Source: Cohnella algarum | Lineage (GTDB): Bacteria > Bacillota > Bacilli > Paenibacillales > Paenibacillaceae | Direction: 5' to 3' | Assembly: GCF_016937515.1 (NCBI RefSeq) | Contig: NZ_JAFHKM010000002.1 | Location: forward strand, 2,909,001 to 2,973,000 | DNA length: 64,000 nt | Shown: piece by piece, positions 30,196 to 64,000 of the stretch | Layout: each line of letters starts with the position of its first letter | Numbering within the stretch: the stretch's first letter is position 1 | Program-made: the position numbers and the translations under genes | The notes under the pieces: generated by a model | Told to the model about the DNA's origin: nothing | Seen by the model: the letters and a program-made list of their open reading frames with translations, nothing else | Databases searched by the model: none

Positions 30196-31023
30196 ATGAC
30201 CAAGGTGATCGCCCTCGCCAATCAGAAAGGCGGCGTGGGCAAGACCACAACGGCGGTCAACCTGGGGATCGGTCTGGCAGCCGATGGGAAAAAGGTTTTG
30301 CTGGTCGATGCCGACGCGCAAGGCAACCTGACGGATTCGTTAGGGTTCCACGAACCGGATAATCTGCCGGTATCTTTGGCCACATTGCTGGCGAAAACGA
30401 TGCTGGAAGAATCCTATGAAGCGCGGGAAGGTATTTTGCATCACCATGAAGGCGTTGACCTGATGCCAGGCAATATTGAATTGTCCGCTGTTGAGGTATC
30501 GCTCGTCAACACGATGAGCAGAGAAACGATTTTGCGTTCGTACATCGACTCTGTTAAAGCCGACTACGATTACGTGCTGATCGACTGCATGCCGAGTTTG
30601 GGCATGTTGACCATTAATGCGCTTGCCGCTGCGGACAGCGTCATCATTCCCGTACAGGCGCATTATTTACCGGCCAAAGGAATGACCCAACTGTTGCAGA
30701 CGATTGCCCGTGTGCGCAGGCAGATCAATCCGAAGTTGCTTTTGGACGGCGTGCTGCTCACGATGGTAGACAGTCGGACTAAATTTGCCAAAGACATTTC
30801 CTTTATTCTTCGGCGCGACTACGGCGACAAGCTTCGCGTGTTCAACACCGAAATTCCCTTATCCGTTCGCGCGGCGGAAACAAGCGCCAAGGGGAAAAGC
30901 ATTTACGTCCATGATCCGGATGGGAAAGCTGCGGAGGCTTATGCCGCCTTTACGAAGGAGGTGCAGAGTATTGGCAGCGAAAGACGACATGCGCGCCAGC
31001 ATCAAACTGACCACAGTCGCTGA
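30196..31023 (+). CDS. parA: ParA/Soj family partition ATPase
   Basis: 275 residues. Deviant Walker A QKGGVGKTTT at 10-19, Walker A' LLVDADAQGNLTDSLG near 36 and Walker B DYVLIDCMPSLGML near 115-128. It forms ATP-dependent filaments or gradients on DNA with ParB to keep the excised circular element in the population. ATG preceded by GAAAGGAGAAG. The C-terminal 17 residues (ERRHARQHQTDHSR) overlap the ParB gene by 53 bases and look like read-over rather than domain. First clear gene of the ICE. Confidence 0.93.
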   Translation: MTKVIALANQKGGVGKTTTAVNLGIGLAADGKKVLLVDADAQGNLTDSLGFHEPDNLPVSLATLLAKTMLEESYEAREGILHHHEGVDLMPGNIELSAVEVSLVNTMSRETILRSYIDSVKADYDYVLIDCMPSLGMLTINALAAADSVIIPVQAHYLPAKGMTQLLQTIARVRRQINPKLLLDGVLLTMVDSRTKFAKDISFILRRDYGDKLRVFNTEIPLSVRAAETSAKGKSIYVHDPDGKAAEAYAAFTKEVQSIGSERRHARQHQTDHSR

Positions 31024-31918
31024 TTTATTCTCGACGGAGGAGAGCCGCGCCGATCAGCAGCGGGAAAAGGTGACGGAAATACCATTATCGGAAATCAGCG
31101 ATTTTCCCAGCCATCCGTTCAAGGTGAAGGCGGACGAAGTGATGCTGGAAATGGCGGACAGCGTGAAGCAATACGGAGTACTTGTTCCCGGACTAGTACG
31201 TCCGAAGGCAGGTGGCGGCTACGAGATGGTAGCCGGGCATCGTCGTAAAAAAGCGAGCGAATTGGCAGGCAGAGTAACGATGCCCTGCATCGTCCGCGAA
31301 CTGGACGACGATCAGGCGACGATCATTATGGTGGACAGCAACCTGCAACGGGAAAATATTGCGCCAAGCGAGAAAGCATTCGCCTATAAGATGAAGTTGG
31401 AGGCGATGAAAAGACAGGCGGGCAGACCGAGTAAAGAAAATTCTACCCAAGTTGGGCAGGATTTACGAGGCAAATATTCAGTTGAAATTTTGGCAGATCA
31501 GGCAGGCGAAAGCCGCAATCAAATCCAGCGTTATATCCGCCTTACCGAACTGACCCCCACCATTCTCGAAATGGTAGACGATAAACGGATCGCCTTCAAT
31601 CCGGCCGTAGAACTTTCATACTTGGCCGAAGAAGAACAGAATGCCCTGTACGAAACGATGCAGTCCGAAGACTGCACGCCTTCGCTGGCGCAGGCGCAGC
31701 GCATGAAAAAACTGAGCCAGGACGGGCGGCTTAACGTGGATGTCATCTTCTCGATTCTCACAGAGGAGAAGCCGAACCAGAAAGAAAAGATGACCATTCG
31801 GCGCGAGCGGGTCGACCGTTTCTTCCCGAGGGACTTTACCGAAAAGCAAAAGGAAGATCTGATCGTACAATTGTTGGAAAGCTGGTATAAAAAACGGCAA
31901 CGGGAACAGGAACGTTAA
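30971..31918 (+). CDS. parB: ParB/Spo0J-like partition protein
   Basis: 315 residues. N-terminal ParB nuclease-like domain: IPLSEISDFPSHPFKV, then GVLVPGLVRP, the CTP-binding AGHRRKKASELAG near 96-108 and ENIAPSEKAFAYKMKLEAM. The helix-turn-helix region follows (ILADQAGESRNQIQRYIRLTEL, about 185). The TTG start at 30971 lies eight bases after AAGGAGGTG. It overlaps parA. A centromere site was not recognised. An acidic/basic C-terminal region replaces the usual dimerisation end. Confidence 0.92.
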   Translation: MAAKDDMRASIKLTTVADLFSTEESRADQQREKVTEIPLSEISDFPSHPFKVKADEVMLEMADSVKQYGVLVPGLVRPKAGGGYEMVAGHRRKKASELAGRVTMPCIVRELDDDQATIIMVDSNLQRENIAPSEKAFAYKMKLEAMKRQAGRPSKENSTQVGQDLRGKYSVEILADQAGESRNQIQRYIRLTELTPTILEMVDDKRIAFNPAVELSYLAEEEQNALYETMQSEDCTPSLAQAQRMKKLSQDGRLNVDVIFSILTEEKPNQKEKMTIRRERVDRFFPRDFTEKQKEDLIVQLLESWYKKRQREQER

Positions 31919-31938
31919 CCTGTATCCTGTTCGGCAGG

Positions 31939-31967
31939 CACTCTCCCTTAGGACGGAGAGCTTTTTT
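31939..31967 (+). terminator. Terminator between parB and the following small gene
   Basis: CTCTCC (31941-31946) pairs with GGAGAG (31955-31960) and is followed by CTTTTTT. The ribosome site of the next gene begins about 14 bases later, so downstream expression needs read-through or a promoter I do not see. Confidence 0.7.
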
Positions 31968-31992
31968 ATGCCCATTTTTGGGGAGGCGATTC

Positions 31993-32205
31993 ATGATGTA
32001 TTTCACGAAAGGGAGGCGTCGTCAATATGAGCGCCTGATGCAAGAAAAGCCGGGTTTCAACCGCGTTGAAGTTTTGGAGGATGAGACCGAGCAGCCGCGC
32101 ACGCGAAACAAGAAATCTCGTGAAGCCGGCCAATCAAAACGAAACCGGAGAACGCAGGAAGATTGCAACTTTCCAGGAAGTGAGGACGGACGATGGAAGA
32201 AATGA
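31993..32205 (+). CDS. Small basic protein of unknown function, ICE-associated
   Basis: 70 residues, strongly charged: MMYFTKGRRRQYERLMQEKPG at the start, then an Arg/Lys/Glu-rich tail. No membrane segment. ATGATG start with GGGAGGCG six bases upstream. Its end overlaps the next gene by 13 bases, so the two are co-translated. I do not recognise a named family; location between partition and pilus genes suggests a role in element maintenance or regulation, which is not shown. Confidence 0.6.
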   Translation: MMYFTKGRRRQYERLMQEKPGFNRVEVLEDETEQPRTRNKKSREAGQSKRNRRTQEDCNFPGSEDGRWKK

Positions 32206-32801
32206 AGCGAATGGTGGACAACTACGAAGTCGATCAGGCCATCTCCATCGGGAAAGTGGAAGTGCTGCTTGGCATAGACGAAACCAATGCCGAACGTCCG
32301 TACATGGTTTGTACCTGCACCCGAAACCATTCGTTGGGTGTCGAGCAATTTTACGCGATTGCGGCCGGCGCGGATTATCTTGAAGCCATGCATGACTTTA
32401 TTTCCCGCGTGCAATGGGAACTGGAGGATCTCAAAGAAGAAAGGGCCAGCGTCAAGGTCCCCCTATCTCCCCTTACGCAAGCACAATGCCATTCGATTCG
32501 CGAAGACATGCGCATTGACAACCAGGTTGTCGTCATCCGGCCGGAACGGTTGCGACCCGAATATCGCACCGCTGTTAACCAGCTTGTGCTGGCGCTAAGC
32601 GGTTTTGGCACCTCTGCCTATTCCCGAGGTCGCGCCGTCTACGTGATCAATCTGTATACCGGAGAGGAGGCTCGCTGGAATCGGGAGGATTTTATGGGTC
32701 TGATAAAACCGGAGCACATGCCCGCATGGGCGCAAGAGAAACTGGAGCAGCATCAGGCTGTAACCAGGCAAAAGTCTAAGCGCCGCGACGAGGCCCGGTA
32801 A
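32193..32801 (+). CDS. Hypothetical ICE protein, 202 residues
   Basis: Soluble mixed alpha/beta protein without signal peptide or membrane segment. Two halves are visible: residues 10-90 (ISIGKVEVLLGIDETNAERPYMVCTC, then a helix with EAMHDFISRVQWELEDL) and 95-170 (QVVVIRPERLRPEYRTAVNQLVLAL, RAVYVINLYTGEEARWNREDF). The tail is Gln/Lys/Arg-rich. No family recognised. GAGGACGG precedes the ATG. It is followed 40 bases later by the SAF-domain gene and is probably the head of the pilus operon together with the preceding small gene. Confidence 0.7.
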   Translation: MEEMKRMVDNYEVDQAISIGKVEVLLGIDETNAERPYMVCTCTRNHSLGVEQFYAIAAGADYLEAMHDFISRVQWELEDLKEERASVKVPLSPLTQAQCHSIREDMRIDNQVVVIRPERLRPEYRTAVNQLVLALSGFGTSAYSRGRAVYVINLYTGEEARWNREDFMGLIKPEHMPAWAQEKLEQHQAVTRQKSKRRDEAR

Positions 32802-32841: not shown

Positions 32842-33963
32842 ATGTCGTGGATGTATCGGCACCGCAAGACGCTTATTATCGCCGCAGTCGCCATAAGCGT
32901 TTGTTTGCTTGCGGCCGCGGCCGTTTATTCTCTGATCAAGCAATCAGAGCAAGAGCAGAAACAGCAACAGATGAAGGAACAATATGAAAGGCAAATCAGG
33001 GAACTGAAAACGATAGAGGAACAATCTCGCAGAAGTGTTTGGACTGTGGCGCGCACCATTCCTGCCGGTGACAAGGTGAAGGCGGAAGACCTCAAGTCTG
33101 TCCCGATGCCTGCGAATTTGGTGCCGCAAGGGATGATTACCGATCAGAACGCGGTCATCGGCAAAAGCGCCAAAATCGAATTACAGCCAGGCACGCCGTT
33201 GATGCCTTCCATGCTGTACGAGGGCGCGCCAATCCCGAAGGATTTGCGGGTGCAGGAGTTTCAAGTCATTCAGCTTCCCTCCAATCTGCAAAAGGGACAG
33301 TACATCGACGTGCGAATCAACTTCCCGACTGGCGAGGATTTTGTCTTGCTGGCGAAGAAGAAGGCGCGGGAGTTGTCCGGCAATGTCATCTGGCTGGAAA
33401 TGAACGAGCTGGATCTATTACGGACTTCAAGCGCGATCATCGATGCCTACTTGCAAGGCGCGCGGCTGTATGCCCTGCCCTACATCGAGCCGGGCTTGCA
33501 GGAATCGGCAGTAGTCAATTATCCCGCCAATCCGAAGGTGCTCGACTTGATGGATCATGATCCGAACCTGCTCGAAAAAGCGACAACCGAGCTTGCCCGC
33601 CAACTGCGAACGACACTGGATGACAATCTGAAGGCGATGAGCGAGTCGGACAAACTGCGCGTAACGAGCGGAAGCGTAACGGTGCAGCAGCAATTGCAAA
33701 ACGAACGGATTGTCACGCAGCAAGGCAATGCCATGCATGAGGCGACCCCATCGCCGCCACCGGCAGGCGCAACGGCTACGGTCGATCACGAACCGCCAGC
33801 TGCGCAGCCGCTGCCCACCTCTTCCGTTCCGACAACGATGAGTGAGAATCGACCGGAAACGCCAGAGGAGCCTACATCAACTGTTTCAACAGATCCGGCG
33901 CCAGCTTCGTCGTCTGGAGAGCCTGCAAAAGTGGATAAATTGGAGCAAATTTTTAATCAGTGA
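32842..33963 (+). CDS. SAF-domain membrane protein, CpaB/RcpC-like pilus assembly
   Basis: 373 residues. N-terminal transmembrane helix at about 11-31, a coiled-coil region rich in Gln/Glu/Lys (33-65), then the SAF domain (VWTVARTIPAGDKVKAEDLKSVPMP, about 68-130), followed by a CpaB-like region (IQLPSNLQKGQYIDVRINFPTGEDFVLL). A Pro/Ser/Thr-rich tail runs from about 300. CpaB/RcpC proteins belong to Tad/Flp pilus systems. Here there is no outer membrane, so it presumably acts at the membrane/cell-wall side. First gene of the Tad-like module; GAAAGGAGACG upstream of the ATG. Confidence 0.82.
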   Translation: MSWMYRHRKTLIIAAVAISVCLLAAAAVYSLIKQSEQEQKQQQMKEQYERQIRELKTIEEQSRRSVWTVARTIPAGDKVKAEDLKSVPMPANLVPQGMITDQNAVIGKSAKIELQPGTPLMPSMLYEGAPIPKDLRVQEFQVIQLPSNLQKGQYIDVRINFPTGEDFVLLAKKKARELSGNVIWLEMNELDLLRTSSAIIDAYLQGARLYALPYIEPGLQESAVVNYPANPKVLDLMDHDPNLLEKATTELARQLRTTLDDNLKAMSESDKLRVTSGSVTVQQQLQNERIVTQQGNAMHEATPSPPPAGATATVDHEPPAAQPLPTSSVPTTMSENRPETPEEPTSTVSTDPAPASSSGEPAKVDKLEQIFNQ

Positions 33964-33974
33964 AGGAGGCCGTC

Positions 33975-34682
33975 ATGAAAAAGGTCGTATTTTTCGGCGC
34001 GCCGGACAAAAGCCACCTGCTCCTTGTGCTTGGCAAGCTGCTCACGGCGATGGAGAGAAAGGTGCTGATCGTGGATTCCACCCTTGCCCAGTCCATGCAA
34101 GGCTATTTGCCGCGAGTGGATTTTGGCTGTTCGTTGCGGGAGTTTGAAGGCATCGATGTGGCGACCGGGCACATCACGCCAGCTCAATTGGAACGTTCTA
34201 TGTTTCAAGCCGGTGGCGAAACGGCATACGATGTCATGCTGCTCGACACCGATCACACCGAATTTGTGAAAGGACGAGAGTTGCCGGGCTACGACAAGCG
34301 GGTGTGGTGCAGCAATTGGAGCCGGCTCGGCATGCATAAAAACGCGGAGCTGATACAGCGGCTGTGCCTTCACGAAGCGGAAGGCCTGCCGCTTTCGTTT
34401 TACAAACTGATAGCCCCTACCCTGCCAACCGCTATACCCGAGTCGTATATCGATTCGCTGCTGCCGCAGCAGGCTGTTCGCTGGGAGGACACCGTGTTCC
34501 GCTTTCCGCTGGACGAACGGGATATGTCGGTCGAACTGGACAACCAGCATCATGGCCGTATCGACATCAGGCGGCTGACTGGAACTTATCGCCGGACCGT
34601 GCTGGACATGCTGCAACAGTTGTTTGATTGCGATGCCAAAACAGCCCGGCGTGCATGGGCGCGTGCGCGAAAGCGTGCGTGA
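33975..34682 (+). CDS. Degenerate MinD/TadZ-like P-loop protein
   Basis: 235 residues, cytoplasmic. It has the order of a SIMIBI-class ATPase: VVFFGAPDKSHLLLVLGKLL in place of Walker A (no GKT), VLIVDST near 36-42 and YDVMLLDTD near 85-93. The normal catalytic lysines are lacking, so it probably does not hydrolyse ATP but may scaffold. The start ATG at 33975 follows AAGGAGG by five bases and lies 12 bases after the SAF gene stop. It is the first of two TadZ-like proteins in tandem. Confidence 0.65.
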   Translation: MKKVVFFGAPDKSHLLLVLGKLLTAMERKVLIVDSTLAQSMQGYLPRVDFGCSLREFEGIDVATGHITPAQLERSMFQAGGETAYDVMLLDTDHTEFVKGRELPGYDKRVWCSNWSRLGMHKNAELIQRLCLHEAEGLPLSFYKLIAPTLPTAIPESYIDSLLPQQAVRWEDTVFRFPLDERDMSVELDNQHHGRIDIRRLTGTYRRTVLDMLQQLFDCDAKTARRAWARARKRA

Positions 34683-34715
34683 ATCCGGTAAAGTCGCATG
34701 AAAGGAGATGAAGGA

Positions 34716-35561
34716 ATGGGTTTTACCGTGGTGTTTTGGAGTCCGGTTTCGGGACAGGCCGGTACGACGAGCAACCTGATCGCCGCCGCGGCGCTGCTCG
34801 GACTCGAATATTCCTCGCGCCTTTTGTTGCTTGGGCATTTGCAAAGCGAATACGCGGCCATCGAACGCAGCTTTTACCCGAGACGGACCTGGATGAGCAA
34901 AGCGGACGCCCCGCCTGACGCGGGTATCGATGCGCTGCTCAGGCTCTTGCAGAACCGCAAGCTGGAACCGAACAGGTTGCGGGATTACACGCTGCCGCTG
35001 CTCGCCGACCGGCTCGACATCCTTCCGGGATCGAACAAGCCGGATGCATCGTTTGTTTCAGCCGCTCAGGAATGGCTTGCGCCTCTTTTGGAACTGGCAA
35101 GGCGCGCTTACGATCTGGTATTGCTGGACGGCGGAAGCGGCAGTTTGTCGGCGTGGACACAGGCGCTGCTGCGTCAGGCGGATTTGCTGGTCGTCTGTCT
35201 GCCGCAAAACTCACTCAAACTGGAGCAAGTTTTTCCGGCTCTGGAGGCGCAGCTTCAGTCCAACCGGAAGCATTTGCTTGTATTCGGACAATACGATCCT
35301 CGCTCCGCTTTGACCGTTAAGAATATCAAGCGCCAGTTCCATCGGCGGGAGCCTGCGTACCCGATTGTCCATAATACGGGCTGGCTGGATGCGACCCAAC
35401 AAGGAGAAGCCGTCCGTTTTCTATTTCGCAACCGACAGGTGCCGCGCGGTCATGAAAACTCACTGTTTATGCAGCAAGTGCGGACATTGGCGCAGGCGCT
35501 CATCAACAACGCCGGACTGAACAAGCCTCTTTTCGGCGGGAAGGAGGACGATGACCGATGA
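34716..35561 (+). CDS. TadZ/CpaE-like atypical ATPase
   Basis: 281 residues. Begins TVVFWSPVSGQAGTTSNLIAAAALL, a deviant Walker A without the signature lysine, as in TadZ/CpaE pole-localising proteins. It continues with LDILPGSNKPD near 115 and YDLVLLDGGSGSLSAW near 140 (Walker B-like). TadZ proteins position the pilus machine. The ATG at 34716 lies eight bases after AAGGAG; an in-frame ATG at 34698 is less likely. It overlaps the CpaF-like gene by four bases. Confidence 0.75.
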   Translation: MGFTVVFWSPVSGQAGTTSNLIAAAALLGLEYSSRLLLLGHLQSEYAAIERSFYPRRTWMSKADAPPDAGIDALLRLLQNRKLEPNRLRDYTLPLLADRLDILPGSNKPDASFVSAAQEWLAPLLELARRAYDLVLLDGGSGSLSAWTQALLRQADLLVVCLPQNSLKLEQVFPALEAQLQSNRKHLLVFGQYDPRSALTVKNIKRQFHRREPAYPIVHNTGWLDATQQGEAVRFLFRNRQVPRGHENSLFMQQVRTLAQALINNAGLNKPLFGGKEDDDR

Positions 35562-37429
35562 TGTTCGCGCTGAACGGCTTGCTTCTGGCGGGCATCCTCA
35601 TCGCGATTGGCGTCTTGCTCTATTTACGCATGAGCCGCCGCTTGCCGGAGCAGCCGGACGAAAAACCGGCCTACACGCTGGAAGCGATGACCACGTTTGT
35701 GAAAGAGGCGCTGCACGAGATGACGAGCAGCAGCCTGATCGACTTCGGCTTGTCGGAAGAAGAATACCGCCGTCGCAAAAACAAGCGCGCAGAACTCAAG
35801 AAAGCGCTGCGGGGCTGCACGTCCGGAGATTTGCGGGACAAGGCGTATGTGAAGCAGGTCATCGCCGATTTGCTCGAACAGCGCTACAATCTGGACGACA
35901 ATAACCTGAATCGGCTTCTGCCGTTTGATGACCCGCAGGCGCTCTCACCGCAAGATCAGTTTGACATCCTGCTCTATCTGTTTAAGAAACAACATCGGTT
36001 GAGAGCACTGGACGAACTGATTCAAAAATACGAATTGGATCGCCCCAAACGGAGTATGGAAGACGAAGAAACCGAGTCATATCGGATTACCGCCGACGAA
36101 ATCCGCGACATTTACAAGCGGGAAGCGCGCAAGCTGTCTGCCGAGGACAAAATGCAGATCGTTGTGCAGCGGATCTATCAGCAATACAAAGGATTCAGCG
36201 TCATCGACGAAATCCGCGACATGAAAATCGACGGCGTATCGGGCGGCGTCTCCGGCATCCCGCCCTCGATGTGGGAAGGCGAGTGGAGCCTGGAGGAAGA
36301 AGCGCTGCTGCGCGAGGTGCCAAGGTCGCATGACAGCGTGTGGCTGTTTTATAAAGGGAAATCCATTCATTTGAGCTTCCTGTCCTTCGGCTCGGAGCAA
36401 GAACTGAGGCGCGTGTGCCAGAACGTGTACAAACATAATTTTCCCGGCCAATTGTCCGAGGCGAACGGCTTTAAGGTGAACGAAATGGCCGACGGCTCCC
36501 GCGTCGTCGTGCTGCGCCCCCGGTTCAGCGAATCGTGGGCTTTTTTTGTGCGCAAATTCGATGTGCAAAACGCCGCGCTGGAACAATTGATTCAGGACGA
36601 CAATGCGGAGTTGCCCATCGGGCTGATCCGATATCTGGTCATGGGCGAGCGCATTACGGCCATCACCGGTGCGCAGGGCAGCGGCAAAACGACGCTCTTG
36701 ATGGCGATGGTGCGCTACATTCCGGCCATCTTGCCGATTCGGGTGCAGGAAATGAGCTTTGAGCTTCAGCTTCGGAAAATATACCGGGATCGCAACATTT
36801 TAAGCCTGCGGGAAACGGAAACGATCTCCGGGCAGGACGGGCTGGACATTCAGAAAAAAACGGACGGCTCGGTCAATATTTTGGGAGAAGTGGCGACCGA
36901 CCCGGTTGCCGCCTGGATGGTGCAGATGGCGCAGGTCGCTTCGCTGTTCACCTTGTTTACGCATCATGCCAAAACATTCCGCGATCTCGTCTATTCGCTG
37001 CGCAACTCGCTGCTGAAGACAGGGGTGTTTACGAACGAAAAAGTGGCCGAGCAGCAGGTCGTCAGCGTCATCAACTTCGACATTCACCTCAGGCGGGACG
37101 CGGACGGACATCGCTACATTGAACGAATTACCGAATGCGTCCCGGTGGAGCAGGAAGAGGGCTACCCGGAGACGTTCCGCCACAAAACGACGACCGAGGA
37201 GAAAATGACGGCGTTCATGGAGACGATGCTGGAATATTTCCGCCGATCGACGGACCGACCGCTTTACGTCGCGCGGAACGTCATCGAATACCGGGACGGA
37301 CGCTATGTCGCCGTTCATCCGTTGTCCGAGCGAAGCCGCAAGGAAATCGCTGCATGCCTCGCCGGGCCGGACCAGGCGGCGTTCGAGGCGTTTTTGGCGG
37401 TTCACTGGGGGGATAGCGATGAGGCTTGA
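35558..37429 (+). CDS. CpaF/TadA-like secretion ATPase with N-terminal membrane anchor
   Basis: 623 residues. Residues 5-24 are a transmembrane helix, unusual for this normally soluble family. A long helical region follows to about 200, the N-terminal ATPase subdomain covers about 215-350, and Walker A ITGAQGSGKTTLL is near 368-380. The Walker B region reads NILGEVATDPVAAWM near 446, keeping the GE pair but not the usual R. The canonical HDGS/H-box is replaced by SLFTLFTHHAKT. It should power pilus assembly or DNA transfer. AAGGAGG precedes ATGATG. It overlaps the previous and next genes. Confidence 0.83.
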   Translation: MMFALNGLLLAGILIAIGVLLYLRMSRRLPEQPDEKPAYTLEAMTTFVKEALHEMTSSSLIDFGLSEEEYRRRKNKRAELKKALRGCTSGDLRDKAYVKQVIADLLEQRYNLDDNNLNRLLPFDDPQALSPQDQFDILLYLFKKQHRLRALDELIQKYELDRPKRSMEDEETESYRITADEIRDIYKREARKLSAEDKMQIVVQRIYQQYKGFSVIDEIRDMKIDGVSGGVSGIPPSMWEGEWSLEEEALLREVPRSHDSVWLFYKGKSIHLSFLSFGSEQELRRVCQNVYKHNFPGQLSEANGFKVNEMADGSRVVVLRPRFSESWAFFVRKFDVQNAALEQLIQDDNAELPIGLIRYLVMGERITAITGAQGSGKTTLLMAMVRYIPAILPIRVQEMSFELQLRKIYRDRNILSLRETETISGQDGLDIQKKTDGSVNILGEVATDPVAAWMVQMAQVASLFTLFTHHAKTFRDLVYSLRNSLLKTGVFTNEKVAEQQVVSVINFDIHLRRDADGHRYIERITECVPVEQEEGYPETFRHKTTTEEKMTAFMETMLEYFRRSTDRPLYVARNVIEYRDGRYVAVHPLSERSRKEIAACLAGPDQAAFEAFLAVHWGDSDEA

Positions 37430-39488
37430 ATGGCTGTCCCTGTTGCTGGGCGCCGCGACGGTATTGTTTCTCGCGATGGTGGCGGCGTTTCAATGGGTAT
37501 CCCGTCACGGTTCGGACGTGGAGGCCGTTCGGCAGTATGAAGCGCTGCGCAAACCGGGCAAAGCCCGCAAGAAGCAAGCGCTGCACAGCGTGTTGCAGCA
37601 GTTGTATCGACTATGCGAACGCGTACCGATTCTACGCGCTTATTTGTACCAACTTCGCAAACGAATGACCATTCTCCAGCTTGGCGACGAATGGAAGCTG
37701 CGGCTGGAGACGATGAAGACGGCGCTCCTCATATGGGGCGTGCTGCTCGCGGCGGCTGTTCCGCTGGCGCTCGGCGTGCGCGACCCGGCCGCGCTCGGCA
37801 TGATTGGCATCGGCTTCTGGGTTGGCCACGGGATCTTTTCGGACAACCTGGTCCATCGGCTGGAGACGCGACTGCTTCGGCAACTCCGGCATTTTTTCTC
37901 GGATGTGCGTCATCATTATCATCGTCATGGCATGGTGGAAGAAGCCATTTATGAAGCGGCGGACGGCGCGCCGTATGAGATGGCGCTGCACGGACACGAA
38001 ATATACGAAGTGCTCACGGCAAGCGACGCCGAGCAGCGGCTGGCGCAGTATATCGAGAGCGCGCCGAACCGCTATTTGCAGGGCTTGGCCGGGCTGTCGC
38101 ATCTGGTGAAGGAATACGGCGACAAACGAACCGCAGCCGGTTCCGTGTACTTGAAGGCGCTCGGGAAGCTCGCGACAGAACTGAATCTGGAACTGCTGCG
38201 CCGCGAGCGCCTCAGTTTCCTGTTGCAAGGACTGACCGCCATCGCGCTGTTGCCACTGCTGTTTACCCGGCCGATCGAAGCTTGGGCCAGCCATTACTTT
38301 CCGGCCATGGACGCCTTTTATGCGAGCACGACCGGCTGGATCGTGAAAATCGGCCTGATGGCGGTCGTATGGCTGTCCTACGTTCTGCTGCGGAACATTC
38401 AGGAGCTGGACGTGAGTCCAAAACCAACCGGCCGAAAAAGATGGGAGAAACGGGTTTACGAATGGCCGTGGATGCGCTGGCTTGTGCATCGTTTCGGTCC
38501 CGCCCCCGGTTCCCGTGAAGCTGACCGCATGGTCAAGCTGCTTAAAGACACCGCGTCGCCGCTTCGGCTGGAATGGCTCTATGTGCAGCGCATCGTGGCG
38601 GGGGGCATGGCTTTTCTGGCTGTGCTCGGGATGTTTATGGCGCTTCATGCCGCAAGCCGGCATCAAATCTTGTATGCGCCGGTAAAGCAGGGCATCCTGT
38701 TCGGCCAACTTTCGCCGGAAGAGGAAGCCAAGGCGCGCGAGGCGGCGGCGCTCGATCGCCGCATCATCGATCGCGTAAAGGAGGTGAAGCATCGCACCGA
38801 AGAAACGGTGATGGCCCTGCTCCGCAGCGAATCGCCAGCAACAAACAAGGACGATCAGCTTCGCGCCGCGGCTCGGCGCATTATGGGCAAGCTCACGAAG
38901 CTGGACAATCAGTATGTGAAGTGGTGGGAAGCGCTCCTCGCCGCTCTCGCGGGATGGGGCGGCTACGCCATGCCGGTCGGCGTTCGGATGTTCCAGCGGC
39001 GCATGCGGCAGATGGAGATGAAGCATGAAGTGGACCAACTGCATGCCGTCATCGCCATGCTGGCGGATCTGGACCGGATGTCGGTCGAGCATCTGCTCAT
39101 CTGGATGGAACAGTTTGCCCGCGTGTTCAAGGAACCGCTGCAAACGTGCTTGCTCCATTTCGAACAGGGCGCGGATCAGGCGCTGGCGCAGCTGAAAGAG
39201 GATGCGCCGTTTGTGCCGTTCGTCCGCACGGTCGAAAAGCTGGAACTGGCGGCGCAAAGTTTGCCGATTCGGGAAGCGTTCGACGACCTGGAGTCGGAAC
39301 AGACTTATGCGCAGGAGCAGCGCAAACAGGAGTACGAGCAATTGATCGAGCAAAAGGCAGGCTGGGGAAAATGGATCGGGTTTGCGCCGATGATGGCCCT
39401 CATTTTCGGCTATCTGGTCATTCCGCTCGTCATCGTCAGCTTGCACCAGATGTCCGTTTACTACGAACAGCTTCAGCGCATTCAGTAA
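37419..39488 (+). CDS. Large TadB/TadC-like membrane platform protein
   Basis: 689 residues with about seven or eight hydrophobic segments: residues 5-25, two near 105-145, 270-290, 305-325, 390-410, 505-525 and 645-665. The two halves each end in paired helices, which suggests a fused TadB plus TadC equivalent (type II secretion F fold). The link is inference, since no short motif proves it. The ATG follows GGGGGGAT and overlaps the ATPase gene by 11 bases, the usual TadA-TadB-TadC order. A terminator follows. Confidence 0.7.
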   Translation: MRLEWLSLLLGAATVLFLAMVAAFQWVSRHGSDVEAVRQYEALRKPGKARKKQALHSVLQQLYRLCERVPILRAYLYQLRKRMTILQLGDEWKLRLETMKTALLIWGVLLAAAVPLALGVRDPAALGMIGIGFWVGHGIFSDNLVHRLETRLLRQLRHFFSDVRHHYHRHGMVEEAIYEAADGAPYEMALHGHEIYEVLTASDAEQRLAQYIESAPNRYLQGLAGLSHLVKEYGDKRTAAGSVYLKALGKLATELNLELLRRERLSFLLQGLTAIALLPLLFTRPIEAWASHYFPAMDAFYASTTGWIVKIGLMAVVWLSYVLLRNIQELDVSPKPTGRKRWEKRVYEWPWMRWLVHRFGPAPGSREADRMVKLLKDTASPLRLEWLYVQRIVAGGMAFLAVLGMFMALHAASRHQILYAPVKQGILFGQLSPEEEAKAREAAALDRRIIDRVKEVKHRTEETVMALLRSESPATNKDDQLRAAARRIMGKLTKLDNQYVKWWEALLAALAGWGGYAMPVGVRMFQRRMRQMEMKHEVDQLHAVIAMLADLDRMSVEHLLIWMEQFARVFKEPLQTCLLHFEQGADQALAQLKEDAPFVPFVRTVEKLELAAQSLPIREAFDDLESEQTYAQEQRKQEYEQLIEQKAGWGKWIGFAPMMALIFGYLVIPLVIVSLHQMSVYYEQLQRIQ

Positions 39489-55685: not shown

Positions 55686-56631
55686 GCTACGTAAACAAGG
55701 AACAGATCGAACGCGCCAAAAGACTGGATTTGCTCACGTATTTGCAAATGTACGAGCCTGCGGAACTGGTACGCTGCTCCCGCAATGTCTACACCACCCG
55801 AACACATGACAGCTTGAAAATTTCCAACGGCAAATGGTACTGGTGGTCAAGGGGGATTGGCGGGCGCTCGGCGCTGGATTACCTGATCAAAGTGCGCGGC
55901 ATGCCTTTTCTCGATGCGGTGCTGCAAATGGAAGGCGTTCATCCCGGCAACATGCTTATGGTTTCGCAATCGTGCCAACAACGCACATCTACGGCGCGGT
56001 TGGAGCTTCCAGAACCGTATGAAAACTCTCATCGCGTCATGGCTTATTTGAGCAAACGGGCATCCACCGCTCGGTGATCGACTACTGTCTGGAAACGGGA
56101 AGGTTGTATGAAAGCCGCCGCTACCACAACGCGGTATTCGTCGGTTTTGACCAAGATGGGACGCCGCGCTATGCGGCGATACGCGGTACGACAAGCACCC
56201 GTTATATGGGAGAAGTTGCCGGCAGCGACAAGCGGTATTCATTTTCCATTCCGGCCTCGGAAAACAGTACGGAACTGCATCTGTTTGAGAGCGCCATTGA
56301 TCTCTTATCCTACTGTACGCTGAAACATCTCGCCGGCCGGGATTGGCGGCAGGCGCATAAGCTGTCGCTGGCCGGAATATACAGGCCCAGGACAAATGGG
56401 GAGGACTCTACTCCCCCGTCTGCCCTAACGCATTACTTGCAGTGCTTTCCCCAAGTAAATCGACTTGTTCTGCACCTGGATAATGATGAGCCGGGGCGAT
56501 TGGCGGCAGCCACGATACAGAGGCTCCTCTCCCCCGCCCTTCTCATATCCGATGAGCCGCCTAAGTTCGGAAAGGATGTAAACAACGAATTGATGGAATT
56601 CCGAAGAAGACGCGGTGAACCATCCCGATAG
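55682..56631 (+). pseudogene. DUF3991/Toprim primase-like gene, broken by a -1 frameshift
   Basis: Two frames together make the usual Tn1549-type DUF3991-Toprim protein of about 315 residues. The first (55682-56077) carries DUF3991: IERAKRLDLLTYLQMYEPAELV, SLKISNGKWYWWSRGIGGRSALDYLIK. The second (open from 56074) carries the Toprim part: LHLFESAIDLLSYCTL and LVLHLDNDEPGRLAA. One G is missing from the run at 56058-56060; restoring it gives KRGIHRSVIDYC, the expected junction. Natural decay, phase variation and a sequencing error are all possible. The family may act in primer synthesis or DNA processing during transfer. Confidence 0.8.
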
Positions 56632-56635
56632 CGGT

Positions 56636-57548: not shown

Positions 57549-57679
57549 TACCCCACATCTAAACAACACGCTGTTTTTCAAGAATAAAGGTTGCAACAAT
57601 GAACGGTATTTTTCAGAGACGGCAGAAGCCATTTAGCATTTTTATTAAGACCATTCTTTTGAAGAAAGAAGCGAAAGCG

Positions 57680-58039
57680 ATGAGAAAACGAGGGATTCGC
57701 ATTCAGGTATGGGTGAACAATGAAGAAGACGCAAGACTCCAAACCAATGCGAAAAAATCCGGACTTTCACGGGAAGGTTATCTCCGTTCCTTGATCAATG
57801 GCTATATCCCGAAGGCGCTGCCGCCACCGGATTATTACGCGATGATGCGCCAGCTTCACGCCATTGGCAACAATCTTAATCAACTGGCGGCGAAAGCACA
57901 TGCGACAGGCCATCTGGATCGGGCCACTTTTCAGCGGGAGGCCGATCAGTTGCGCCGCGCCGTCCAACAGATTCAACAGGCCGTGACTGCGCCGGAACGA
58001 AGAACCGAGCAAGCGACTCCAAATGTGCATCCGCCGTAA
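57680..58039 (+). CDS. mobC: Relaxosome accessory protein MobC
   Basis: 119 residues. Starts RKRGIRIQVWVNNEEDARLQTNAKKSGLSREGYLR, a ribbon-helix-helix DNA-binding core, with the MobC helix NNLNQLAAKAHATGHLDRATFQREADQLRR after it. It binds oriT and helps the relaxase melt it. The ATG at 57680 is the usual family start, although its ribosome site is weak (AAGAAGCG). An in-frame ATG at 57599 with AAAGG upstream would add 27 residues. The relaxase gene starts 15 bases after its stop. Confidence 0.88.
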   Translation: MRKRGIRIQVWVNNEEDARLQTNAKKSGLSREGYLRSLINGYIPKALPPPDYYAMMRQLHAIGNNLNQLAAKAHATGHLDRATFQREADQLRRAVQQIQQAVTAPERRTEQATPNVHPP

Positions 58040-58053: not shown

Positions 58054-59478
58054 ATGGCGACGACGGCAATATGGGATGTCACCGACCGATTGAAGCGCGT
58101 GATTGATTACGCCACCAATCCCGACAAAACAGCGCAAGATCGCGCCGAGAAGAATGAAGGCTTGCGGCAGGTGCTGGAATATGCAAAAGCGGATGTCAAA
58201 ACGGAAAGGCAGCTTTATGTGAGCGGCATCAATTGCGACCCGCTCACCGCATACGAGCAAATGCAGCGCACCAAGCGTCAATTTCAAAAGATGGATGGCA
58301 TCGTCGCGTTTCACGGATACCAAGCGTTTGCACCCGGCGAAACGACGCCGGAAATGGCGCACACCATCGGCGTCAAGCTGGCACAGGAGCTATGGGGAGA
58401 TCGCTTTGAAGTCGTCGTATCGACACATTTGGACAAAGAGCATTTGCACAATCACTTTGTGCTGAACTCCGTCTCCTTTATCGACGGTAAAAGGTACTAC
58501 GACAACAAAGCTTCCTACGCCCTTCTGCGGAGAACATCCGACCGGTTATGCCGGGAACATGCATTGTCAGTAATTGAGCAGCCCGAGCCGGGCAAGGCCA
58601 AACACTACGGAGAATGGAAAGCAGATCAGGAAGGAAAGCCGACTTGGCGAGGATTGATTCGAACCGATGTAGATCAGGCGATTGCGGCATCGATGACATG
58701 GACCCAGTTTATCGCCGCGTTGCAGAAGCAAGGCTATGAAGTGAAAACGACCGTGAAGCATATGGCGGTGCGTCCACCCGGTAAAGAACGTTTCGTTCGT
58801 TTGCGCAGCTTGGGAGACGACTATACTGAAGATGCTCTGAAAAAGCGGATTTTGCGAAACCGCATTCCCCGTAAATCACAGCCTTTGCCAATGCCGCGAC
58901 GCAGGCGCGCCGTTTGCAAAGGAACGCTTCGATCCGGCAGGAAGTTCAGCGGCTTGCAAGCATTGTACCTGCGCTATTTATATGAGATGGGCATACTGCC
59001 TCATTTTCGCGCGTCCGTGAGAAGGACGCCTTTTTTATTGCGGGAAGACTTGCGGCATTTGGCGGTTATTACCGCGCAGACCAAGCTGCTCTGTCAGCAC
59101 CGTATTTCCAGCAAGGATCAGCTTTTGGACTATGTATCTGTCACCCGGCAAGAGATGCGCTTGCTTTACGGCGAGCGCAAAGCGCTGTACAACCGCCTCC
59201 GCCGCTGCAAGGAGAAAAGCCAGATCGTCGCTTACAAGGAGCAAATAGCCGTACTATCCAAGCGGCTTGCCACGCTCAGAAAGGAGGTGAAGCTGTGTGC
59301 GGGCATCCTTGCCCGATCCGGTGAAATGATGACTAAACTACATGGCGACAAGCAAAATCAACCATTACGAAGGGAGGATTCCATCCATGAGCAGTGGAGC
59401 CGAGGCGGCCGATCAGGTCGTCAACATGAGTCTGCGGGGCATCGAGGTAATGGCCAAGATTTCCGGCGAAGGCGCTAA
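58054..59478 (+). CDS. Relaxase, MobA/VirD2 family
   Basis: 474 residues. Nicks oriT and carries the strand into the recipient. The N-terminal domain holds a possible catalytic Tyr (Y55 region, RQLYVSGINC), TKRQFQKMDGIVAFHGYQAF and the metal site STHLDKEHLHNHFVLNSV near 128-145. The C-terminal half is basic and helical. The last 30 residues (from about 445) overlap the next gene by 92 bases and read as low-complexity Arg/Gly/His. AAAGGGGG precedes the ATG. The gene order mobC-relaxase-pcfB matches Tn1549-type elements. Confidence 0.92.
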   Translation: MATTAIWDVTDRLKRVIDYATNPDKTAQDRAEKNEGLRQVLEYAKADVKTERQLYVSGINCDPLTAYEQMQRTKRQFQKMDGIVAFHGYQAFAPGETTPEMAHTIGVKLAQELWGDRFEVVVSTHLDKEHLHNHFVLNSVSFIDGKRYYDNKASYALLRRTSDRLCREHALSVIEQPEPGKAKHYGEWKADQEGKPTWRGLIRTDVDQAIAASMTWTQFIAALQKQGYEVKTTVKHMAVRPPGKERFVRLRSLGDDYTEDALKKRILRNRIPRKSQPLPMPRRRRAVCKGTLRSGRKFSGLQALYLRYLYEMGILPHFRASVRRTPFLLREDLRHLAVITAQTKLLCQHRISSKDQLLDYVSVTRQEMRLLYGERKALYNRLRRCKEKSQIVAYKEQIAVLSKRLATLRKEVKLCAGILARSGEMMTKLHGDKQNQPLRREDSIHEQWSRGGRSGRQHESAGHRGNGQDFRRRR

Positions 59479-60283
59479 GCATTTGGCCGTATATTTGTTT
59501 GCCGCCTTGCAGGGGCAGAAACGAACGAAAGGCAGCACTCGTTTGGAAAGCTTGCTTCGCAGCGGCAAGGAACTGAAAGTGTTTGCCGTTAAAAATGAGG
59601 ACTTGCCTACGTTCTGCAAGGAAGCCAAACGATACGGAGTCCTGTACTGCGCCTTGCGAGACAAAAAGAATGTCGATGGATTGTGCGACGTGATGGTGCG
59701 GGCCGAGGACGCATCCAAAATTAACCGCATTGTCGAGCGCTTCAAACTGGCGACCGTGGATACGGCCAGCATTAAAAGCGAAATTGAAAAATCCCGCGCC
59801 GGAAAACAGCCCGTTCAACATGCGTCCGAGCAAGGTCATGAGCAAGCATTGGACCAAACTCAGCAGCGGACGGCGGAGCAAGAAATCGCGGCCAAGGGAA
59901 CGACTCCGGAAAAGAGCGCCGACGATTTTTTGGACGAATTGATGCAAGGGAACAAATCACAGCAGCCAACGTTCCCGGCGCACGACCAACCAAACCCCAC
60001 AATGGCGACGACGGAGCCGCCCCATCCGTCCGAGCCTACCTCCGGGCGCAGCGAAGCATCCGCAAGGGGTACGATTGAACAGAAAGCCGAGACCGTGCAG
60101 CGGCGGCCATCGATCCGTGAACTGCTGCGCGAGATTCGGGAAGAAAATAGGAGAGCGGAGAAAGAGCGGCGTCAGTTGGTCAAGGAACCGTCGCTGACCC
60201 AACGAAGCGAGCGAAATGCCGGTAAAGCGAAGACGGGGAAAACCAAATCCAACGAATCTCGAAAGCGAGGGAAAGCCAAATGA
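59387..60283 (+). CDS. PcfB family (DUF3801) conjugation protein
   Basis: 298 residues. The conserved PcfB core occupies about 1-130: ADQVVNMSLRGIEVMAKISGEGAKHLAVYLFAAL, SLLRSGKELKVFAVKNEDLPTFCKEAKRYGVLYCALRDKK, DVMVRAEDASKINRIVERF. The remainder is disordered, charged and Gln/Glu/Pro-rich, with a basic end. In pCF10 PcfB helps recruit relaxase and coupling protein. The ATG at 59387 follows GGGAGGATT; it lies within the relaxase gene. It ends in a four-base overlap with the next gene. Confidence 0.88.
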   Translation: MSSGAEAADQVVNMSLRGIEVMAKISGEGAKHLAVYLFAALQGQKRTKGSTRLESLLRSGKELKVFAVKNEDLPTFCKEAKRYGVLYCALRDKKNVDGLCDVMVRAEDASKINRIVERFKLATVDTASIKSEIEKSRAGKQPVQHASEQGHEQALDQTQQRTAEQEIAAKGTTPEKSADDFLDELMQGNKSQQPTFPAHDQPNPTMATTEPPHPSEPTSGRSEASARGTIEQKAETVQRRPSIRELLREIREENRRAEKERRQLVKEPSLTQRSERNAGKAKTGKTKSNESRKRGKAK

Positions 60284-61185
60284 ACAATCTGGACGATTTA
60301 TTCCGTCAGGATGCAGCCAGTCGATCATCCACGAATCCGTCCGAACAACCGTTTGACAAGGAAGCCTGGGCACAAAAAAAGCAGGAACTTAGGCAATGGA
60401 CTTATGAGACGATTGATGCCGCGACATCCTCCATTGCGCAAAGCGGCGATGAGTTTCAGTGTTATCTGGATGTGCAGAGCCGTTTCGATCGCTACAGCGT
60501 ATCCAATGCGCTTCTGATTCTCGCGCAGCGGCCGGAGGCGACCCGCATCGCCGATTTTGATACATGGAAAGAACAAGGCGTATTTATTCGTCGCAAGGAA
60601 ACCGGCTTTTACATTTTGGAGCCGGGTGAGGAGTACCGGAGGGAAGACGGCAGCACCGGCATTAGCTATAACCCCAAAAAGATGTTCGACATCGCACAAA
60701 CGACGGCCAGCCAAAAGAGGGAACAGCCGACTTACCCGGACGACCGGATGCGTATCAAAGCGCTGGTGGATCGCGCCCCCGTCCCGATCGTCATTAACGA
60801 TGCGCTGCTGCCGGAAATGCATGCAATATACCAGCCGGACACGAGAATTATTGTCATCCGCCGCGGCCTGGATGCCGGGGATATTTTCCGGTCGCTCGCG
60901 CAGGAGCTGGCGCATGCGGAACTGGATCGCGGCGATGGCCGTTACAGCCGTTCCGATTCTACGTTCCATGCATATTGCGCCTCCTATATGCTGTGCAAAC
61001 AGTTCGGCGTAGACACGTCTTCTTTTCGTTTTCATCGAGTGCCGGAGAAGCTGAAGGACATCGAGCCGCAGCAAATTCGCACCGAACTGATGGTGATGAA
61101 GGATGCCGCGCATGACATGGCCCGCAGGATGAACCGGATGCTGGCGCAGCAGCGGCAACAACAGCGGCCGGAACCGGCAAGGTAA
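60280..61185 (+). CDS. ArdC-like antirestriction / ImmA-type metallopeptidase-like protein
   Basis: 301 residues. N-terminal ArdC-like region: YLDVQSRFDRYSVSNALLILAQRPEATRIADFDTWKEQG. The C-terminal half has the metallopeptidase helix QELAHAELDR near 208-217, in which the first His of HExxH is replaced by Gln, so catalysis may be lost or altered. ArdC proteins bind single-stranded DNA and protect incoming DNA from restriction. Starts within the PcfB stop (ATGA). Gln/Arg-rich tail. The same order, PcfB then ArdC-like then VirD4, is found in Tn1549-type ICEs. Confidence 0.83.
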   Translation: MNNLDDLFRQDAASRSSTNPSEQPFDKEAWAQKKQELRQWTYETIDAATSSIAQSGDEFQCYLDVQSRFDRYSVSNALLILAQRPEATRIADFDTWKEQGVFIRRKETGFYILEPGEEYRREDGSTGISYNPKKMFDIAQTTASQKREQPTYPDDRMRIKALVDRAPVPIVINDALLPEMHAIYQPDTRIIVIRRGLDAGDIFRSLAQELAHAELDRGDGRYSRSDSTFHAYCASYMLCKQFGVDTSSFRFHRVPEKLKDIEPQQIRTELMVMKDAAHDMARRMNRMLAQQRQQQRPEPAR

Positions 61186-61416: not shown

Positions 61417-63171
61417 AACCGCAAGGAGTAACCTGATACTCTTTGCGGTTTTTTTCATTCCCGTCCTGTGGGCGGCGATGCTGACCGCCCTGCACTTTCC
61501 GGGGGGCTGCCGGCGATGGTGGAGCATCTCAGCGCGGCGATCAACCACCCGTTCGACATTCAGTGGGTAGACGATACGCCCCGCTGTCTGCTCTTTTTTA
61601 CGCTAGCTTATGGACTCGGCGTCGGCGTTTATCTGGCTTCTCCTCGAAACTACCGGCGTAGGGAGGAGCACGGCAGCGCCCGTTGGGGCCAGGCGAAAAG
61701 CATTTGCGCCAAATATCGAAGCAAGCAGCAGGAACAAAACAAAATTTTAACCAAGCAGGTTTGCATCGGACTCGACGGCCGCAAGCATCGCCGGAATGTG
61801 AATGTGCTTGTCGTAGGCGGTTCCGGCTCCGGCAAAACAAGGTTTTATGCCAAACCGAACGTGATGCAGGCGCACACGTCGTTCGTCGTTCTCGACCCGA
61901 AAGGCGAAATCTTGCGCGATACCGGCCATCTGCTCAAGGCCAAAGGGTATGACATCAAGGTGCTCGACCTGATCAATCCGCACCGCTCCCACGGCTACAA
62001 CCCTTTCGCCTATTTAAACGACGACAAGGATGTGCTGAAGCTGGTCACCAACCTGATTCGCAATACAACGCCGAAGGGCAGCAATACGAACGACCCGTTC
62101 TGGGAACGGTCCGAAACGGCGCTGCTGGAGGCACTCATGTTGTATTTGCTTTATGAAGCGCCGCCGGAGGAACAGAATTTTCCGATGGTGATGGAGATGA
62201 TTGCCGCCGCCGAAGTGCGGGAAGAAGACGAAACCTACCAGAGTCCGCTGGACGAGTTGTTTGAACGGCTGGCCATGCGCGACCCGGAGCATTTGGCGGT
62301 CAAACAGTACAACATCTTCAAGCTGGCGGCGGGGAAAACAGCCAAATCGATATTGATCGGCCTCGGCGTTCGGCTGGAGAAGTTCAACTTGCATTCGATC
62401 GCCGGGATGAGCCTGGTCGATGAAATGGATTTAGCTGTCATGGGAGAAAAGAAGATGGCGTTGTTTGCCGTTATTCCCGACAACGACAGCAGCTTCAACT
62501 TCATCGTCGGGATGCTCTACACCCAGCTTTTCCAATGCCTGATGTACGAGGCCGACTACCGTCATGGCGGACGCTTGCCGGTGCACGTGCATTTTGTGAT
62601 GGACGAATTTGCCAACGTCGCCTTGCCCGATGAATTCGACAAGCTGCTCTCCACCATGCGCAGCCGCGAGATTTCGGTCTCCATCATCCTGCAAAATCTG
62701 GCGCAGCTCAAAGCTTTGTATAAGGAGTCGTGGGAATCGATCGTCGGGAACTGCGACGTGTTTTTGTACCTGGGCGGCAATGAACAATCCACCCACAAAT
62801 ACGTCTCGGAGCTGCTGGGCAAGGAAACGATCGACACGAACACGTACGGCCAAAGCAAGGGACGCAGCGGCAGCTATTCGATCAACTATCAGTTGTCCGG
62901 TCGCGATTTGCTGACGCCCGATGAGGTGCGTCTTCTCGATAACCGCCATGCTTTACTCTTTATTCGCGGCGAGCGTCCTGTTCAGGACGACAAGTACGAT
63001 TTGCTCAGGCATCCCCATGTCGAGCTCACGACGGATGGCAGCGGTCTCCCCTACCAGCATGGCGGCACGGAGCACGCTTTGGATTGGCGAAAGGTGTTGC
63101 TTCACGAAAACGGAGAGTACGAGCTTCTGTCGGAAGAAGACATGGAGTCGCTATTTTTACGAAGGGAATGA
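61404..63171 (+). CDS. virD4: Type IV coupling protein VirD4/TraG, with apparent N-terminal frameshift
   Basis: Hexameric ATPase that passes the relaxase-DNA complex to the transfer channel. The catalytic frame (open from 61468) has a membrane helix (LLFFTLAYGLGVGVYLA), Walker A VVGGSGSGKTRF, Walker B HFVMDEFANV and NLIRNTTPKGSNTNDPFWE. The expected first helix (LILFAVFFIPVLWAAMLTAL) is in another frame, starting at the ATG at 61404. The two join if one G is added to the six-G run at 61501-61506, giving HFPGGLPAMVEHL. Without that, the protein would begin near 61516 and lack helix one. Sequence error or true mutation cannot be told apart here. Confidence 0.85.
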
Positions 63172-63476
63172 TGAAGTTGAAAATCAAAAGGAAACGGCTG
63201 CTGGCGCTGTACATCATGCTGGTCTTAACGGGAACCGTGTTCGTCTCCACCGCTTATGCCGAGGGCGACCCGATGACGACGGTCAATAATTTGTCCACCT
63301 TCATATTCGGCTTAATCCGGGCCATCGGCATGATCATACTCGGCTTCGGCATTGTCCAGATCGGATTGTCGCTCAAGTCTCATGACCCTTCCCAGCGGGC
63401 GAACGGGTTCCTGACGCTCGCCGGCGGGATTATCATCACCTTCACGAAGGAAATTCTTACCCTGATTGCCGGTTAA
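63171..63476 (+). CDS. VirB2/Maff2-like small membrane protein
   Basis: 101 residues. Signal-like N-terminus (LLALYIMLVLTGTVFVSTAYAEG, possible cleavage after AYA), then two hydrophobic helices joined by a short polar loop (FIFGLIRAIGMIILGFGIVQIGL, LKSHDPSQRANG, FLTLAGGIIITFTKEILTLIAG). This is the form of VirB2 pilins and Maff2-like proteins of Tn1549-type ICEs, a channel or pilus subunit. ATGATG lies in the virD4 stop; the second ATG, at 63171, is taken. A hairpin follows the gene. Confidence 0.8.
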   Translation: MKLKIKRKRLLALYIMLVLTGTVFVSTAYAEGDPMTTVNNLSTFIFGLIRAIGMIILGFGIVQIGLSLKSHDPSQRANGFLTLAGGIIITFTKEILTLIAG

Positions 63477-63493
63477 ACAGGAGTCGCAAATGA

Positions 63494-63523
63494 GGGGAAC
63501 GGACGGTTTGTCTGTTCCCCGTT
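63494..63523 (+). terminator. Hairpin between the VirB2-like and VirB6-like genes
   Basis: GGGGAACGGAC (63494-63504) pairs over 11 bases with GTCTGTTCCCC (63510-63520), one G-U, loop GGTTT, followed by only GTTT. It is probably a partial terminator or mRNA-stabilising stem that favours the pilin-like message over the downstream one. Confidence 0.6.
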
Positions 63524-63542
63524 TACAGAAAGGGGTGAGAAT

Positions 63543-64000
63543 ATGGCCAAAAACAGTTGGATTATTGACAATCTCGAACATGCGCTCGATACGTGGAACG
63601 AGAAAATGAACGAAATCTGGCAACTCGTTACCGAGTCGCCGGCCGACTTCAAAGGCGGCGGCGTTTGGCGCGTCATTACCGACATTCATGGCGCGTTGCA
63701 GGCGACGGGACTGGCGCTCCTGGTCTTGTTTTTTGTGATTGGCGTGGTGAAGACGACCGGCAGTTTTGCCGAAATGAAAAAGCCGGAGATGGCCGTCAAG
63801 CTGTTTATCCGGTTCGTCCTGGCCAAAGCGGTCGTCACCTACGGGCTGGAGCTCATGATGGCGCTGTTTACCATTGTTCAGGGAATCATCTCGACGATGA
63901 TGGGGCGTTCCGGGTTCGGAAAGACGGAGGCTATGACCTTGCCGAACACCATTGCAAAAGCGATTGAAGACGTCGGCTTTTGGCAAAGCATACCGCTGTG
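63543..64000 (+). CDS. VirB6/TrbL-like conjugation channel protein, 3' part outside window
   Basis: First 152 residues of a larger protein. A polar N-terminus (NLEHALDTWNEKMNEIWQLV) is followed by hydrophobic segments at about 51-70 (ALQATGLALLVLFFVIGVV) and 92-118 (FVLAKAVVTYGLELMMALFTIVQGI). This is the beginning of the VirB6-like multi-helix protein found after the Maff2-like gene in Tn1549-type ICEs. GGGTGAGAAT precedes the ATG. The window ends inside it. Confidence 0.82.
   Translation, partial: MAKNSWIIDNLEHALDTWNEKMNEIWQLVTESPADFKGGGVWRVITDIHGALQATGLALLVLFFVIGVVKTTGSFAEMKKPEMAVKLFIRFVLAKAVVTYGLELMMALFTIVQGIISTMMGRSGFGKTEAMTLPNTIAKAIEDVGFWQSIPL

Follow-up and report, generated by a model that had tools for sequence, protein, structure and literature searches.

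Does a Tad-like pilus-assembly module that stands beside a conjugative transfer system serve conjugation, or has an element picked up a filament of more general use? The question is raised by a stretch of 64,000 nucleotides from Cohnella algarum (contig C2:2909001-2973000 of a 6.2-Mb genome; this whole stretch is hereafter the window), in which the main genes from 30.2 kb onward are all on the + strand and the module lies 5' of a CD1110/CD1115-type (Tn1549-like, FATA) transfer system reaching past the window's end. An earlier interpretation of the window alone (the sequence-only reading) had built the module into an integrative conjugative element (ICE) and proposed that it might form a mating-pair adhesin or pilus. 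The block is no ICE invention: its relatives lie mostly at ordinary chromosomal places. From the sequences we favor, with doubts that weigh as much as the arguments for it, a general peptidase-lacking Tad-like adhesion filament that has repeatedly been taken up by conjugative elements and may aid mating contact.

Gene content of the module

A genome scan returned no fewer than 518 relatives. The best 80 of them were retained, a biased set in which several contigs are broken. Across these 80 loci the order tadZ2-cpaF-tadBC was kept without exception (80/80), and the other parts were shared to varying degrees: saf in 78/80, s1 in 67, s2 in 43, s3 in 72, s4 in 71, and the gene for a DUF5704 protein in 33. 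The 623-amino-acid cpaF product (35558..37429, +; Walker A GAQGSGKT) is, by sequence, firmly assignable to the CpaF/TadA ATPase family: a profile from 17 relatives had matches at E <= 1e-5 to 3 distinct PDB sequences, each of them a CpaF (best, 4e-16), and the assignment also draws on the alignment. A search of a phage collection with the CpaF query gave no match over 44% of the query. Upstream, a CpaB/RcpC-like SAF-domain membrane protein (32842..33963, +) matched PF08666 above cut-off (E 1e-12), FlgA in a profile search (E 0.002), and the CpaB model TIGR03177 with an E value of 8e-14 yet only 51.5 bits, where the cut-off is 71. Between the two lie a pair of degenerate TadZ-like proteins with weak matches only: the first (33960..34682, +), of ParA/MinD type, to MinD chains (profile E 4e-4), and the second (34698..35561, +), of ParA type, to a ParA chain (profile E 1e-3) and, below cut-off, to TIGR03371 (E 4e-5).

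The remaining member of the invariant trio is a platform-like membrane protein of 689 amino acids (37419..39488, +), apparently made of two TadB/C-like halves. No Pfam family was common to more than 1 of 28 relatives. Its first half had a weak HH match (55% probability) to one T2SSF-like protein, and its structural model (predicted local distance difference test score [pLDDT], 79.7) runs through a long helix, four short helices, and a long helix twice over (residues 123-293 and 502-688), the order expected of tandem TadB/C-type units. A TadB/C-like identity, suggested by operon place, the HH match, and this modeled two-fold helix pattern, is not established. All genes named in the sequence-only reading were found where it had placed them, on the + strand; the folds it expected were recovered for TadA by sequence and for CpaB at the domain level, weakly for TadZ, and not for TadB.

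Downstream of the platform gene are four small genes (s1 to s4), each encoding a protein with one N-terminal hydrophobic helix. The candidate main filament subunit, s1 (39565..40044, +; from alignment), was modeled as an alpha/beta head on a 50-residue helix (pLDDT 86.1); s2 (40125..40514, +) has a motif, SG-A-x-V, like that of s1, and s3 (40525..41073, +) and the 327-amino-acid s4 (41060..42043, +) are likewise single-helix proteins by alignment. Two exported proteins follow: a secreted wall-type protein with a Cu_amine_oxidN1 (stalk-type) domain (42157..43263, +; PF07833, E 1e-34), replaced elsewhere by an SLH protein (OF4 plasmid and one chromosomal locus), and a large DUF5704 protein (43268..47086, +; PF18964, E 6e-78), a candidate surface adhesin. 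DUF5704 proteins have an ordinary hydrophobic N terminus, and our literature search found DUF5704 mentioned nowhere. On several plasmids GGDEF proteins are encoded directly behind DUF5704 (e.g., L011:30927-31931 and L022:24873-25982), hinting at cyclic di-GMP control of the filament.

The gene upstream of saf varies by context, as seen in a comparison of L078, L011, L022, L005, and window positions 30196-32801. Chromosomal Paenibacillus loci have a Ser/Thr kinase-ParA fusion there and plasmids and FA elements a receiver-like ParA fusion, so that a larger receiver- or kinase-ParA protein precedes the module in other loci. FATA elements have ParA/ParB and a 202-amino-acid protein: in the window, a ParA-family ATPase (30196..31023, +; PF13614, E 2e-59), ParB (31001..31918, +; PF02195, E 3e-17, and HTH_ParB; its start is uncertain, an alternative longer open reading frame beginning at 30785), and the 202-amino-acid protein of FATA-type loci (32193..32801, +), which is without a Pfam match and present in 22/80 loci.

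Distribution and linkage to transfer genes

When 148 genomes were drawn evenly from the family, 79 of them yielded 95 loci. Loci were split at 70% CpaF identity and scored as linked when a coupling-protein gene lay <=75 kb from the module. Most loci (78/95) were divergent (<70%), and just 2 of these 78 were linked, against 8/17 at >=70% (Fisher p 7e-6); a PF12696 match of any sort occurred in 22/148 genomes. Among the fetched loci, for which 48 genomes behind 49 of the best-80 loci were searched and an FA-type VirB4 within the same distance was also admitted as a partner, the counts were 19/21 at >=70% and 2/42 below. Both linkage counts of the even draw are lower bounds, because contigs are broken and because PF12696 is blind to a Tcp-like coupling protein, so that a second copy of the module in the window's own genome (see below) was scored as unlinked. 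In the subclade to which the window belongs, the tie to transfer genes is close.

Divergent loci recur at chromosomal sites. Many of those in Paenibacillus share the same flanking core genes, with the kinase-ParA fusion just upstream; fpg stands upstream in 12 loci, and in Clostridia 23/25 loci have a HAD-type or SpoIVB-like neighbor (gene names other than that of the kinase are by sequence look). The divergent majority, its rarity near coupling-protein genes, these recurring sites, and the rejection of a single conjugative clade by the tree described below are why we conclude that the block did not originate in ICEs. The claim that the module belongs to an ICE therefore fails for the block as a whole, which occurs mostly outside such elements, though not for the transfer-tied subclade of the window; nor does a constant pairing with the Tn1549-type relaxase hold.

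Exchange of the adjoining transfer system

A CpaF tree of 97 rows (quick IQ-TREE, with support from the SH-like approximate likelihood ratio test [SH-aLRT] only; conjugative labels taken from flanking genes) rejected all conjugative rows as a single clade in the approximately unbiased (AU) test (p-AU 3.4e-6), and the conjugative label switches at least 7 times on it. The 22 FATA rows and a Cohnella herbarum plasmid form a clade nested in a larger group, in which FA-type rows are the outer ones (branches 100%). All Clostridia rows fall into a single clade and plasmids at no fewer than 5 places, the positions of some plasmid rows being unsure because of long branches. The type of type IV secretion system (T4SS) beside the module has been exchanged; the direction is not firm, because the FA-type rows as a single clade were not rejected (p-AU 0.087). 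One FA-type copy stands outside the rest on a branch with 100% SH-aLRT support.

The window's own genome holds two copies of the module. At a distance of 0.47 Mb from the window's module lies a complete second one (C2:2473223-2487405), with protein identities to the first of 51-89% (CpaF 77%, s1 89%). The genes upstream encode a Replic_Relax protein (PF13814, E 1e-16), an M23 hydrolase, a 527-amino-acid protein with a ParA domain, a VirB4 with TcpF as top NCBIfam match (189 bits, far under the cut-off of 1100), and a coupling-protein candidate with weak FtsK/TrwB matches. One genome thus carries the module beside two unlike transfer systems, FATA-type and Tcp-like.

Large plasmids pair the module with a third type of transfer system. 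A tblastn survey of 72,556 plasmid records with CpaF gave 26 records, 16 of which were fetched: 15 carry the module (the pHD02 copy being interrupted by the record end), and the 16th, from Alkaliphilus, carries a canonical Tad locus. A TraG/VirD4-type coupling protein above the Pfam cut-off was found on 14/16, that is, on 14 of the 15 module carriers and on neither pHD02 nor the Alkaliphilus plasmid; Replic_Relax exceeded its cut-off on 11/16 and AAA_10 on 7/16, with no AAA_10 match in plasmids W03, W07, W08, and W16. Replacement of the VirB4 channel by the Tad module, considered where AAA_10 was weak or absent, was dropped for the Lysinibacillus plasmid, which has an annotated cluster of PrgI, a DUF87 ATPase, a type IV secretion protein, and an M23 hydrolase; its T4SS is of another type and lies ~90 kb from the module. 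PLSDB labels all 26 records "non-mobilizable," which argues against transfer via known relaxase models.

A stretch of 21,797 bp is 100% identical between the Cohnella herbarum plasmid (L009:9989-31785) and a Paenibacillus mellifer contig (L039:1-21797), which reflects either a very recent transfer between genera or a contaminated assembly on one side. The view that the module sits inside a conjugative element was upheld: it is complete there, it accompanies three kinds of transfer system, and, contamination aside, it has moved between these two genera very recently.

Relation to known pili and conjugative elements

With Tad/Flp (type IVc) pili the module has in common a CpaF-family ATPase, a SAF/CpaB-like protein, ParA-type accessories, and single-helix subunits in one operon. 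It differs in having neither the Flp pilin motif nor a prepilin peptidase gene, in adding the DUF5704 surface protein, and in its platform-like protein, apparently one fused chain instead of the separate paralogous TadB and TadC. The fused platform and the missing prepilin peptidase bear on Tad origins, since PMC6668835 holds that TadB and TadC arose when a single archaeal platform protein was split. In Paenibacillus sp. ACRRX (L061:16448-21445) another Tad-type locus lies immediately behind the module; it looks canonical, with separate TadB and TadC and a peptidase-like protein.

Gram-positive tad-like loci without an apparent prepilin signal were described by Imam et al. (2011, PMC3244431); like the module they have tadA, tadC, tadZ, and rcpC homologues and no apparent prepilin-signal protein, whereas they carry tadV, and kinship, judged from the description, is a lead only. 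The Sulfobacillus plasmids pL15/pY0017 and the Kr1 island, reported as carrying homologues of a T4SS and a type II secretion system (PMC6803676), combine MinD-, CpaF-, and TadB/TadC-like genes with a VirB4/TraG-type system and a relaxase in a monoderm host, and are likened here by description alone; no DUF5704 protein is named in the text available. Lysinibacillus plasmids of the pBsph type carry T4SS genes as well as one for a pilus assembly ATPase (PMC4363355, PMC13239906): the ATPase of pBsph was proposed to act in conjugal transfer (PMC4363355), and the pBsph-like p1593 has been termed conjugative (PMC13239906). The L. sphaericus plasmid NZ_CP014857, probably pBsph-like to judge from species, size, and replicon, carries the same module. 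The IncI plasmid R64, likened without sequence comparison, shares the trait of a type IV pilus next to a T4SS, required in its case for mating in liquid (PMC12102498); its host is diderm and its pilus type IVb. Given the pBsph proposal and the Sulfobacillus report, the pairing of Tad-like genes with a T4SS is not new. Our literature searches found nothing on the module in Paenibacillus ICEs. As far as they show, what is new is how widely the module occurs, that most of its loci are chromosomal, and that the adjoining T4SS changes.

What the module may do

How Gram-positive donors first capture a recipient is poorly known, and the usual explanation is surface adhesins, not pili. The module offers a concrete and deletable candidate for that step: conserved and, in most carriers, part of the chromosome, it has nevertheless traveled repeatedly with three sorts of transfer system. 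In the proposed mechanism, the single-helix subunits, s1 as the main one and s2 to s4 as minor ones, would be pushed out of the membrane by the CpaF ATPase together with the fused platform, giving a filament at the cell surface or a short pseudopilus. Positioning of the machine would fall to the SAF protein and the TadZ-like pair, and the wall-type and DUF5704 proteins would make its outer, adhesive part. We infer that a filament is formed, with s1 as its main subunit, and that it sticks to surfaces or cells. Conjugative elements have acquired the module more than once and exchanged the adjoining transfer system; on them the filament would most likely work alongside the T4SS, which transfers the DNA, by bringing a donor to its recipient or keeping the two in contact. 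A role as mating-pair adhesin is possible. A bolder proposal, which we regard as rather doubtful, is that monoderm conjugative elements repeatedly recruit the chromosomal peptidase-free filament, tipped by DUF5704, to serve as a mating pilus that is active and perhaps retractile, and keep it while swapping the transfer machine; if true, this pilus would be the Gram-positive counterpart of the pilus-aided mating of diderms.

Several observations weigh against an adhesive mating filament. No significant PDB fold match was found for the models of s1 and the platform protein, nor any PDB sequence match for the latter (neither a new fold nor a lack of kinship follows from this); no Flp pilin motif (peptidase cleavage site, Glu/Tyr at +5/+6) could be seen by eye in the s1-s4 alignments; and no prepilin peptidase (TadV; Peptidase_A24) is encoded in the module, the genome's sole Peptidase_A24 match lying 2.5 Mb from it, at C2:361194. 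In one test, pBsph showed no transfer, according to the part of PMC4363355 available. The majority of family loci lie away from transfer genes, and the basic job of the module is therefore not mating; its recruitment could serve host adhesion alone. Such a filament, for host adhesion, biofilm formation, or colonization, would be cargo, a fitness trait that the elements carry with no part in transfer. This explanation deserves serious weight even if we lean away from it: the module stands alone in most genomes of the family, and DUF5704 is also found in 6 loci, among the fetched 80, that are not labelled conjugative, but in several unrelated elements the complete module is next to or ~10-40 kb from transfer genes, and it stays while the transfer system changes.

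Two other functions appear improbable to different degrees. That the machine is a secretion pseudopilus exporting DUF5704 or other surface proteins, instead of an adhesive filament, would fit the position of the DUF5704 and wall protein genes behind the module in many loci, but we consider it unlikely in view of the ordinary N terminus of DUF5704 proteins and the many complete modules without one. Less likely still is that the CpaF-like ATPase, a member of the VirB11/PilT superfamily, powers the T4SS in place of the VirB11 said to be missing from Gram-positive systems. Within the subclade of the window, transfer genes always lie near the ATPase; against this, the ATPase is accompanied by its own platform and subunits throughout the best 80 loci, most loci have no T4SS gene nearby, its closest PDB family is CpaF, and a VirB11-like ATPase reported on pAW63 (PMC9673590) makes the premise less than absolute. 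Of these explanations, the general filament that elements have recruited is the one we retain.

The transfer system and extent of the element

Behind the module, the first large gene (47895..55166, +) encodes a 2423-amino-acid methyltransferase and SNF2-type helicase (Pfam and PADLOC matches); the PADLOC matches, to DrmD, BrxHI, and methyltransferase families, are weak (best E 1e-14). The DUF3991 gene of the sequence-only reading is present, its DUF3991/Toprim match (PF13154, PF13155) now corrected to 56074..56631 (+). Between it and a MobC/NikA-like relaxosome protein (57599..58039, +; PF21983, PF05713) is a Phd/YefM antitoxin and ParE toxin pair (56786-57380). There follow a MobA/VirD2-type relaxase (58054..59478, +; PF03432, E 5e-39), a PcfB-like DUF3801 protein (59342..60283, +; PF12687, E 4e-29), an ArdC-like protein (60280..61185, +; PF08401, E 2e-4, slightly below cut-off), a VirD4-like coupling protein of the CD1115 family (61468..63171, +; NF045973, 548 bits, cut-off 250), a VirB2/TrbC-like small protein (63168..63476, +; PF04956, E 3e-4, below cut-off), and a VirB6-like protein (63543..64382, +, past the window end; TrbL_2, E 0.0015, below cut-off). 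Outside the window lie PrgI (65397-65777; PF12666) and a CD1110-family VirB4 (65770-68094; NF045971, 1049 bits, cut-off 325), so that VirB4 and VirD4 of the Tn1549 type, a MOBP-like relaxase, and PrgI are all present.

Homology to relative G005 covers ~30.17-68.09 kb, breaks off, and returns from 102.5 kb, and homology to relative G100 restarts at ~100.4 kb; this return rules out a T4SS truncated after VirB4. The ~32 kb behind VirB4 (~68.1-100.4 kb) is not shared with the relative's element; it contains transposases and FabH-, SulP-, ArsR-, thioredoxin-, and rhodanese-like genes (named by sequence look), and parts of it recur elsewhere in relatives' elements. An 11-base repeat, AAACCGGCTTT, was rejected as an attachment site, as it sits in a hairpin and inside genes. 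Farther on, in window coordinates, an NlpC/P60 gene ends at ~105.6 kb, and the region at ~122.1-124.3 kb encodes a large serine recombinase.

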